A DNA stretch of 32,185 nucleotides from positions 1-32,185 of the forward strand of contig JAJRVV010000050.1 of the NCBI GenBank assembly GCA_024277135.1, read 5' to 3'. The stretch's first letter is position 1, and every line of letters begins with the position of its first letter. The notes under the pieces are model-generated. The model worked only from the letters and a program-made list of their open reading frames with translations, did not search any database and was not told the DNA's origin. The translations under genes were made by a program, and so were the position numbers. Source of the DNA: Chloroflexota bacterium. Its GTDB lineage: Bacteria; Chloroflexota; Anaerolineae; Promineifilales; Promineifilaceae. This document shows, one piece after another, positions 19,120 through 25,450 of this stretch.

Positions 19120-20943
19120 TCACAGTTCTTGCGTCTTGGCGTTGATCTTGGACAAAATTTGTTTTTCAAATTCAGCCAGGGGAACAGCGCCCAGGTCCTC
19201 GTTATTGCGTGTCCGCACTGCCACCGTCCCATCTTCGCTTTCTCTATCGCCAACCACCAGCATATAAGGAGTTTTCTGCAATTGGGCATTGCGAATCTTT
19301 TTATTCATCCGGTCGCCACTGGCATCCACCGCAACGCGGACGCCTTTGGCGCGCAAATCGGCGGCCACCTTTTCAGCATAGGGCAGGTGACGGTCGGTGA
19401 TGGGAACCATCACCACTTGCACCGGGGCCAGCCACAGTGGGAAGGCGCCGGCGTAATGCTCGATCAACACGCCCATGAACCGCTCCATCGAACCTAACAA
19501 GGCGCGGTGAATCATGTACGGCCGATGCGCTTCCCCATCCTGGCCGATATACGTCATATCGAACCGCTCCGGCAAATTAAAATCAAATTGAATCGTACTG
19601 AGCTGCCATTCGCGCCCCAGCGCGTCAATCATTTTCAGATCAATTTTCGGGCCGTAGAACGCCGCGCCGCCTTCGTCAACGTCATAATTGAGTTCAGCGC
19701 GTTCCAAAGCGGCTCTCAGCGCATCTGTTGCCTCCTGCCACCGTTCAGCATCTCCGGCCGATTTTTTCTCGTCGCGCGTAGACAGATAAGCGTGGAATTT
19801 GTCCATGCCAAAGCTGCGTAAAATGTGCAGACAAAAGTTCAGCGCCCGGTCAATTTCGTCCGGCATCTGGTCTTGGCGGCAGAACAAATGGGCATCATCC
19901 TGCGTAAAGCCGCGCACCCGCATCAATCCGTGCATGACGCCGCTACGTTCGTAACGGTACACTGTTCCCCATTCGGCCATGCGTAAGGGCAGGTCGCGGT
20001 AGCTGTGCATCTTGTCCTTGTAAATCATGATGTGAAACGGGCAGTTCATCGGTTTGAGAAAATACTCATCTTCATCAATCTGGATAGCCGAGTACATATC
20101 ATCCTTGTACCAGGTGAGATGGCCGCTTGTCTTCCACAACGTACTGCGCCCGATGTGCGGCGAATAGACCATATCGTAGCCGTTGGCGAGGTGTTCGTTT
20201 TTGCAGAACTCTTCGGCTAGATGGCGCACCAAGCCGCCTTTGGGATGCCAGAGAATCAATCCGCCGCCCACTTCTGGCGATGTGCTGAACAAATCCAGCT
20301 CTTTGCCCAATTTGCGGTGGTCTCGTTTTTTGGCTTCTTCCAGCCGCTCCAGGTAAGCGGCTAATTCTTCTTTGTTGGGCCAGGCCGTGCCGTAGATGCG
20401 CTGCAACTGCGCCCGATTTTCGTCGCCGCGCCAATAGGCGCCGCTGGAACGGAGGATTTTGACGGCGTTGGCCCGTACTTTTTTGGTGAAGGCAACGTGC
20501 GGCCCACGACACAAATCCACAAAGTCCCGGTGCTGGTAAATGCCGACTTCGGTCACTGGTTCGCTGATGGGATTACCGTTTTCGTCCACTTTGCCGGCGG
20601 CCAGTTGGTCAATGAGTTCCAGCTTGTACGGCTCGTCGGCGAAAAACTGCCGCGCTTCGGCAATGGTTTTGCTGGACTGCTCGAATTTGGCGTTCTTTTT
20701 GAGCAGTTTCTTTAGGGTGACTTCGATTTCTTCCAGGTCTTCGGGCAAGAAGGCTCTGGGTTTGCCGTTTTCGTCTTGGCCCAGGTCGAAGTCATAGTAA
20801 AAGCCATCGGCGATGGGCGGGCCGATGGCCAGTTTGGCTTCGGGGAAATGTTCCAGCACGGCCTCGGCCATGACGTGCGCCGCCGAATGGCGGAGGCGGT
20901 ATAGGTCGGACTGTTCGTAAGGGATATTATCGTTTTCGGACAT
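19120..20943 (-). CDS. thrS: Threonyl-tRNA synthetase without TGS domain
   Basis: This class II synthetase of 607 residues charges tRNA-Thr in the cytoplasm. The editing domain carries HSAAH (19-23) and the paired CRGPH (145-149). The catalytic domain has zinc ligands Cys301 (MNCPFH), His352 (DDAHLF) and His479 (MIHRALLGS), motif 2 RYERSGVMHGLMRVRGF and a motif 3 region ending GSMERFMGVLIEH. The C-terminal anticodon-binding domain starts near residue 505 (APVQVVMVPIT). The protein begins directly at the editing domain and lacks the N-terminal TGS domain of longer homologues (642 residues in E. coli). I chose the ATG at 20943 because TTGGAG lies upstream. Expression is probably T-box controlled (21031-21396). 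Confidence 0.97.
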   Translation of the reverse strand: MSENDNIPYEQSDLYRLRHSAAHVMAEAVLEHFPEAKLAIGPPIADGFYYDFDLGQDENGKPRAFLPEDLEEIEVTLKKLLKKNAKFEQSSKTIAEARQFFADEPYKLELIDQLAAGKVDENGNPISEPVTEVGIYQHRDFVDLCRGPHVAFTKKVRANAVKILRSSGAYWRGDENRAQLQRIYGTAWPNKEELAAYLERLEEAKKRDHRKLGKELDLFSTSPEVGGGLILWHPKGGLVRHLAEEFCKNEHLANGYDMVYSPHIGRSTLWKTSGHLTWYKDDMYSAIQIDEDEYFLKPMNCPFHIMIYKDKMHSYRDLPLRMAEWGTVYRYERSGVMHGLMRVRGFTQDDAHLFCRQDQMPDEIDRALNFCLHILRSFGMDKFHAYLSTRDEKKSAGDAERWQEATDALRAALERAELNYDVDEGGAAFYGPKIDLKMIDALGREWQLSTIQFDFNLPERFDMTYIGQDGEAHRPYMIHRALLGSMERFMGVLIEHYAGAFPLWLAPVQVVMVPITDRHLPYAEKVAADLRAKGVRVAVDASGDRMNKKIRNAQLQKTPYMLVVGDRESEDGTVAVRTRNNEDLGAVPLAEFEKQILSKINAKTQEL

Positions 20944-20967
20944 GGTTATCTCCAACTTTCTAAGACT

Positions 20968-21022
20968 AGAGACTGGAGACTGGAGATTGAGAGATGTTTG
21001 CAGTCTCCAATCTCCAGTCTCT
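20968..21022. repeat. GAGACTGGAGAC inverted repeat (copy 2) in the thrS leader
   Basis: AGAGACTGGAGACTGGAGA is followed, after a short loop, by CAATCTCCAGTCTCT, forming a fold-back. It lies between the T-box terminator and the thrS ribosome-binding site and is therefore transcribed as part of the 5' leader. The first copy is at 1010-1053. Confidence 0.75.
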
Positions 21023-21096
21023 AATCTCCTAAAATAAAAACGCCATCACCCGTATTGGGGCGATGGCGCTCGCGATTCCACCCAATTTTAGCGTTC

Positions 21097-21150
21097 AGTT
21101 GTCAGTGTTCAGTACCAACCGAATACTGAACAGTGATTACTGAAAACTCT
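21097..21150. repeat. CAGTATTCAGT-type repeat (copy 1) inside the T-box leader
   Basis: CAGTTGTCAGTGTTCAGTAC and later CCGAATACTGAACAGTG and TTACTGAAAACTCTC belong to the same family as 22445-22502. In the minus-strand RNA it lies between stem I and the antiterminator and can pair with itself (GTTCAGTA with TACTGAAC). Confidence 0.7.
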
Positions 21151-21195
21151 CATTGACGGCCGTTAACGGGGCCAGCCGGGTTTTCTTAATGAGTG

Positions 21196-21219
21196 GGGGC
21201 AGACTGTCAGGTCTGCCCC
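21196..21219. repeat. GGGGCAGAC inverted repeat inside the T-box leader
   Basis: GGGGCAGAC (21196-21204) and GTCTGCCCC (21211-21219) form a perfect 9-bp stem with a 6-base loop. A second small inverted repeat, GGACA...TGTCC, lies beside it at 21224-21246. These extra stems are not part of the usual T-box core. They may be intermediate stems or inserted repeats. Confidence 0.65.
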
Positions 21220-21402
21220 TAGACGGACAAACTAAATAGTCTGTCCTTACCGTTCGGAAAATCACTCTCGGGGGGTTTTCGCTGATTTGTTTTACGGTGA
21301 TGGCTTGCAGCCGACGGCCGTCACTCTCTGTATCGTCTCAAAAAAGCTACTCATCCCGATCAACGTGTTGAAGTGAGATGAATTATTTTGTTGGTAGGAG
21401 CC

Positions 21403-21430
21403 ATTATAAAACAGAGCGCGGCCTTGTCAA
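21403..21430 (-). promoter_or_regulatory. Consensus sigma-70 promoter driving the thrS leader
   Basis: On the minus strand, a perfect TTGACA (complement of 21425-21430), a 16-base spacer and a perfect TATAAT (complement of 21403-21408) precede the T-box leader. The start of transcription is expected near 21396. It is the best promoter match in the window. Confidence 0.9.
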
Positions 21431-22444: not shown

Positions 22445-22502
22445 CAGTATTCAGTTGGCAGTTCAGTCACCAGTCGGTCACTGAAAACTGAATACTGAAC
22501 AC
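22445..22502. repeat. CAGTATTCAGT inverted repeat (copy 2)
   Basis: CAGTATTCAGTT (22445-22456) and AACTGAATACTG (22486-22497) are exact reverse complements. Between them are GTTCAGTCACCAGTCGGTCA units. It occupies the spacer between the CoxD-like and CoxE-like genes and is transcribed with them if they form an operon. Confidence 0.8.
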
Positions 22503-25004: not shown

Positions 25005-25042
25005 CAAGGAGACTGTGCTCCTACGGAGTCGCAATGCCCCAG

Positions 25043-25450
25043 TGGAGATGGTGGGAATCGAACCCACGTCCGAAAAAGTAGACCGCTGCACCTCTACAAG
25101 CTTAGTTGGCCTATTTGAGATTCGCTGCCAGGCGCCCCAGCCAACCGGGTCAACTGTTAGCTAGCCGATGGCCCCCGAAAGGGCCGCTTGATCATCTCCA
25201 TCGGCGTCGAGATGAGGCACGTTGACTAAAGTGTCGCCTGCGCTCACCCGGTCAACGAGCGAAATGAGGCAGACGCAGCTCCGCTTTGGAGCCTCCGCTT
25301 ATCCTAAAGCCGCCTTAAGCAGCCAGAGGAAGAGCGTTGTAAGAAGCAGTGCGATTGGCACTTAATTGTTTGCTTCCAGTTTTACGAGATGTAAAGCGTG
25401 CTCGGCTTGCAGTACAGGGACATCCTTCCCCGTCGAAACCTGTCATCCCC
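25043..25450 (-). ncRNA. ssrA: Transfer-messenger RNA (tmRNA)
   Basis: This is a one-piece tmRNA of 408 bases that rescues stalled ribosomes together with SmpB. The minus-strand 5' end GGGGATG (from 25450) pairs over 7 bp with CATCTCC at the 3' end (25044-25050), including one G-U pair. A T-arm GTGGGTTCGATTCCCAC lies just before the 3' end, and ACAGGTTTCGACGGGG follows the 5' end as in other tmRNAs. The discriminator is A at 25043. The next bases are CT, so CCA is not encoded and must be added. The tag reading frame at 25315-25359 starts after TTAAGT with GCC and reads ANRTASYNALPLAA, then stop TAA. The resume codon is inferred from the motif position. Confidence 0.95.

Follow-up and report, generated by a model that had tools for sequence, protein, structure and literature searches.

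The window, as we call the whole 32,185-nucleotide stretch of Chloroflexota DNA that was analysed, carries on its minus strand the gene thrS (19120..20943), encoding threonine--tRNA ligase (TIGR00418, 719.5 bits), whose nearest named ThrS matches came from Chloroflexota, mainly MAGs of Anaerolineae and Ardenticatenales. On the same strand, to which the coordinates of the leader region below refer, a sigma-70-type promoter (21403..21430) precedes a T-box leader (21053..21372), an intrinsic terminator and a further hairpin. The promoter consists of TTGACA (21430-21425), 16 nt and TATAAT (21408-21403) with 12/12 consensus matches, and the orthologous leaders L037 and L040 showed similar promoters. 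A second thrS-like gene (about 48–52% identity) adjoins thrS in the relatives G007, G021, G023, G024, and G034. The window also contains a minus-strand tmRNA gene (25040-25450) with the tag peptide ANRTASYNALPLAA.

Covariance analysis revealed that positions 21372-21053 matched the T-box model of Rfam (RF00230) over its full length (1–219 of 219) with 77.3 bits and an E value of 5.1e-17. This score falls short of the gathering score of 93, so that a default Rfam scan of the whole window misses the thrS T-box; the ortholog G012/L012, which has no inserts, scored 119.6 bits, over the cut-off. Strict cut-offs in T-box searches pass over leaders of such build, this one included. Matches to miRNA families in the leader were rejected, as they reflect long palindromes only.

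The leader contains the parts of a transcriptional T-box. The specifier loop of stem I (GAAA-ACC) presents the codon ACC (Thr; 21274..21276) in the covariance alignment, and its register was fixed by comparison with the genome's other T-boxes (Ile AUC, Ser UCC, Val, Trp, and Leu) and the genes downstream of them; the specifier is thus cognate to the regulated gene. Stem II (21179..21263) has a lower helix with 95.9% of cells paired and double changes in 5/7 pairs, and the stem IIA/B element (21164..21179) includes CCGUUA, as it also does in the f1 thrS leaders of relatives. The order RRRxG, stem III, AA is represented by the purine string GAGAG (21151-21147), a helix and AAAA (21089-21086); these flanks are described as the working part of T-box stem III (PMC7583486). 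The T-box sequence (UGGA) and antiterminator (21053..21083) overlap the terminator hairpin (21071-21038; −25.4 kcal/mol, z −5.5), which is followed by a U-run to 21031, giving competing structures. The first-pass annotation of this DNA had proposed the thrS T-box leader, its consensus promoter and the overlapping terminator, and all three proposals held. Covariance match, orthologs and covariation together show that the core, namely stem I with ACC, the base of stem II, IIA/B, the stem III flanks, antiterminator and terminator, is intact.

Two features of the leader point the other way. The S-turn of stem II retains GAA and has AUUA in place of the AGUA typical of most orthologs, and one A-C mismatch lies in stem II; the switch could be weakened by these changes. 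The UGGA bulge predicts U73 in the tRNA-Thr of this genome, and no tRNA-Thr was found in the sampled contigs. The corresponding UGGC of the serS T-box fits G73 of two tRNA-Ser genes in contigs of relatives.

The first-pass annotation had further placed two dispersed repeats between stem I and the antiterminator, lodged in a linker of the riboswitch. The element related to CAGTATTCAGT is indeed dispersed, the GGGGCAGAC inverted repeat is a single-copy conserved hairpin, and the idea of an unstructured linker holding repeats was rejected because the elements fall on stems II and III, which they form or extend.

The GGGGCAGAC inverted repeat, exact at 21219-21196, is one of two hairpins that make up the crown of stem II, a region that folds with a z of −3.9. 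Among 14 orthologs, hairpin A (GGACAGAC/GTTTGTCC; 21225..21246) had 98.2% of its cells paired, with compensatory changes in 3 pairs, and hairpin B (GGGGCAGAC/GTCTGCCCC; 21196..21219), which is the inverted repeat itself, was paired in 100%. Across the 14 thrS leaders of this family, which carry both hairpins, 98.1% of cells were paired and 11/24 pairs showed double changes, and 0/500 shuffles were as good. The genome has a single copy of the GGGGCAGAC palindrome, which therefore cannot be called dispersed, and a comparison of the element with the genome samples gave no match above shuffled sequence. With one genomic copy and covariation in 14 thrS leaders, the hairpin was rejected as a dispersed repeat. 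The tips of stem II are plain in the thrS orthologs L038 and L039. These results show that the two-hairpin crown is an inherited part of stem II, specific to the thrS leaders of this family.

Stem III (21090..21148) has a different origin. The segment from CCGUUA to the T-box folds with a z of −3.8, and most of stem III is made of a dispersed CAGT-heptad hairpin, as identified from its fold and its match to own-genome repeats. The element, at about 21143-21093, is a diverged copy of the CAGTATTCAGT family (CAGTAAT.CACTGTT.CAGTATT...); the exact 11-mer lies in the window not in the T-box but at 22445-22497, where a hairpin of exact copies stands between a gene for a MadB-like ATPase and its neighbour. 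The genome contains 212 copies of the exact CAGTATTCAGT 11-mer and 2 of the reversed control sequence, and eight relatives had 0–5 copies each, equal to the control level, which indicates recent spread in this lineage. The best match of the stem III segment was likewise to the own-genome sample (44.8 bits), compared with at most 25.6 bits in three relatives and 31.4 bits for shuffled sequence.

The orthologous sites do not share this element. L038 and L039 have a plain 7-bp stem III without an insert. In G010/L037 stem III is a TTAGC/GCTAA hairpin and in G028/L040 a CACGGA tandem, each matching only the repeats of its own genome. The CAGT element is therefore a dispersed heptad repeat, multi-copy here and absent as such from orthologous sites; the CAGTATTCAGT repeat was also found in two further T-boxes, those of trpE and alaXM, within stem II. 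The first-pass annotation had named matching stems at matching positions in homologous leaders as evidence against its own proposal. The GGGGCAGAC hairpin proved to be shared in this way by 14 leaders, and the CAGTATTCAGT element was not, the orthologs showing either a plain helix or a different repeat there. Outer stem III is thus shown to have been replaced or lengthened by a period-7 repeat hairpin that recently spread in this genome.

A third repeat lies between the terminator and the start codon, where it had been noted in the first-pass annotation as a dispersed element. It is a TGGAGAC-heptad hairpin of 25 bp (GAGACTGGAGAC/GAGACTGGAGA element; 20962..21028, z −7.8), and its unit GGAGACTGGAGA had 64 genomic copies against 0 in the control. 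This hairpin is a dispersed repeat standing outside the switch.

Five further T-boxes were identified in this genome, before valS, serS, trpE, alaXM, and leuS, the specifier of the serS T-box being UCC (Ser), as settled by the downstream gene. Coverage by period-7 arrays in 34 T-boxes from six genomes was 31.6% for the linker plus stem III, 12.5% for stem II, 0.9% for stem I and 0.3% for the antiterminator. The arrays covered 951 bases, against 139 ± 84 in length-matched random intergenic segments (about sevenfold; maximum 490 in 1000 draws), in a test in which the orthologs are partly dependent and the intergenic control rests on a simple ORF caller. T-boxes scoring 90–114 bits carried repeats too. 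The RRRxG and AA flanks of stem III persist in these leaders. Throughout the sampled genomes, period-7 arrays were enriched in intergenic and not in coding DNA, and neighbouring periods were much weaker; G012 showed only a small excess. These densities derive from contig samples of 230–400 kb per genome.

Several other observations were made on these T-boxes. The alaXM T-box (L004, G000:C53:14546-14923) has an Ile-like specifier AUC before a gene for an alanyl-tRNA editing protein (AlaXM), and its stem II holds the CAGT repeat. Stem III of the Trp T-box (trpE, L003 1501-1868; L228, L229, L230, L233, L245) contains a terminator-like GC hairpin with a U-run in five genomes. The octamer palindrome ACGGCCGT had 585 copies in the own-genome sample L176-L195 plus the window (329 kb), or 1.78 per kb, where base composition predicts 7.9 copies in all, an abundance that resembles that of the HIP1 palindrome of cyanobacteria; it also occurs in the thrS T-box at 21163-21156, where it is kept in many orthologs, and in stem I.

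The explanation that we consider very probable is that a transcriptional T-box sensing uncharged tRNA-Thr controls read-through into thrS with an intact core and variable arms, the latter being the inherited stem II crown and a genome-private repeat in outer stem III, and that repeats are tolerated at the arm tips. By the known T-box mechanism, uncharged tRNA-Thr would pair with ACC and UGGA, and its binding would stabilise the antiterminator so that transcription reaches thrS. A self-folding hairpin that caps stem II or stem III would prolong the helix outward and hold its ends together; tip hairpins are probably tolerated because these helices are extended outward, so that tRNA binding and antiterminator formation could go on despite them, and they might also tune the speed of folding. 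Selection would presumably eliminate such a repeat from stem I or the antiterminator.

The enrichment over other intergenic DNA could also mean selection for repeats. The repeats in stems II and III would then be regulatory guests, either binding sites for a repeat-binding protein or RNA or kinetic elements whose pause or delay gives the tRNA time before the terminator. The roughly sevenfold density of period-7 arrays in the linker and stem III relative to random intergenic DNA is in line with this, as is the crown, which keeps its stem sequence and not pairing alone at ThrS identities down to 60%. However, the sequence and presence of repeats vary among orthologous T-boxes, several of which have none, and the same repeats stand at many unrelated intergenic sites, which makes selected guests unlikely. 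It is similarly improbable that nothing was inserted and that native stem III grew by heptad slippage into a longer palindrome, resembling genomic repeats through shared slippage-prone motifs. The tandem arrangement of the repeats with a period of 7 favours this view, and certain copies, such as CACGGA in G028/L040, look like pure tandem expansion; yet each stem III segment fits the repeat family of its own genome and not those of relatives, and CAGTATTCAGT is abundant in this genome alone and recurs in stem II of two other T-boxes (trpE, alaXM). Decay of the T-box, with arms filling with repeats after selection ceased, could account for the low score (77 bits), AUUA for AGUA and the A-C mismatch but is very improbable, since every part from promoter and specifier through CCGUUA, purine string, T-box and antiterminator to the terminator is intact, repeat-bearing orthologs retain the same core, and leaders of 90–114 bits hold repeats as well.

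The leuS T-box of this genome (L006 1501-1943, G000:C226:8936-9378, minus strand) carries a complete tRNA-Ala(GGC) gene (L006 1586-1660) between both strands of stem III; the arrangement was also found in L146-L168, L172, L175, L196-L225, L314-L317, and L323-L330 and is conserved across Chloroflexota. A tRNA-Ala(CGC) gene ends just ahead of stem I, and the order tRNA-Ala(CGC), stem I, tRNA-Ala(GGC) in stem III is the same in most leuS leaders of the family. A search of this genome for a second tRNA-Ala(GGC) found none besides the copy in the leuS T-box.

We searched more widely with a pattern consisting of a tRNA T-arm, 33–63 nt and GTGGTACC. Within the class, 39/396 genomes were positive, and the tRNA was tRNA-Ala(GGC) in 27 of the 30 loci checked. 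Within the phylum, 56/400 genomes were positive, about 44/56 looking true by eye, and hits in the reversed control were rare. Outside the class, leuS lay about 130–900 nt downstream in 12/12 tRNA-Ala(GGC) loci examined, and T-box models spanned the embedded tRNA with up to 109.5 bits. Stem III of at least 5 bp, preceded by the purine motif, enclosed the tRNA in 34 of 39 non-identical loci, and its strands covary (GATGG/CCATC, GTCGGAG/CTCCGAC, GGCAGGG/CCCTGCC, GGTAGAAA/TTTCTACC, AGCTAAT/ATTAGCT). In the leuS leaders of one genus, represented by G019 (L165) and G033 (L174), the tRNA-Ala CGC and GGC genes form a tandem with a spacing of about 25 nt, in which no T-box was found; this arrangement may reflect either T-box loss or an ancestral state.

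These loci suggest a broader proposal, the chances for and against which we regard as evenly balanced: stem III of Chloroflexota T-boxes would be a general guest site, open to repeats and to a working gene; leuS would have held tRNA-Ala(GGC) in a large part of the phylum; the tRNA would be present in all leader transcripts, whether terminated or read through; excision by RNase P and RNase Z would part the tRNA-Leu-sensing half from the leuS mRNA; and the supply of tRNA-Ala would be coupled to the T-box decision within a single molecule. The tRNA would be produced with each leader and would need excision, which may part sensor from message. In the favoured explanation, the leuS T-box with its whole tRNA gene is the extreme case of the arm tolerance proposed for thrS, and a tRNA gene within a tRNA-sensing riboswitch poses questions on tRNA processing and switch timing. 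The literature searched contained no account of a tRNA gene inside a T-box; earlier descriptions elsewhere may exist.

A recent review lists insertions in T-boxes whose structure and role are not understood among the open questions of the field (PMC7583486). The tRNA-bearing arm of leuS hints at the origin of such unexplained insertions, and the origin of one class of them becomes visible and testable here. Period-7 hairpins private to single genomes collect at the ends of stems II and III, whereas stem I and the antiterminator are almost free of them; this distribution also maps the sites at which a T-box can be altered. The known insertions (a stem II region of about 10–200 nt) likewise lie in stems II and III and leave the core kept; the difference is that some can be traced here to a source, namely dispersed repeats of period 7 and, for leuS, a tRNA gene.

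Direct repeats of heptamers, TAACTGA among them, have been described from Beggiatoaceae, Cyanobacteria, and Bacteroidetes (PMC4679880). The repeats reported here share with them an intergenic location, a period of 7, many sites per genome and a frequent position just before start codons, but differ in comprising several private families per genome, in forming hairpins with tandem arms and in lying inside a riboswitch. The thrS leader itself agrees with the transcriptional, stem II-containing T-boxes of RF00230 in its stem I specifier, stem II with a putative S-turn region, IIA/B with CCGUUA, RRRxG-stem III-AA order, UGGN bulge, competing terminator and downstream cognate synthetase gene, and it differs in its two-hairpin stem II crown and in an outer stem III derived from a dispersed genome repeat. 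Overall, the leader represents an established type of switch in a new form and belongs to a wider pattern.
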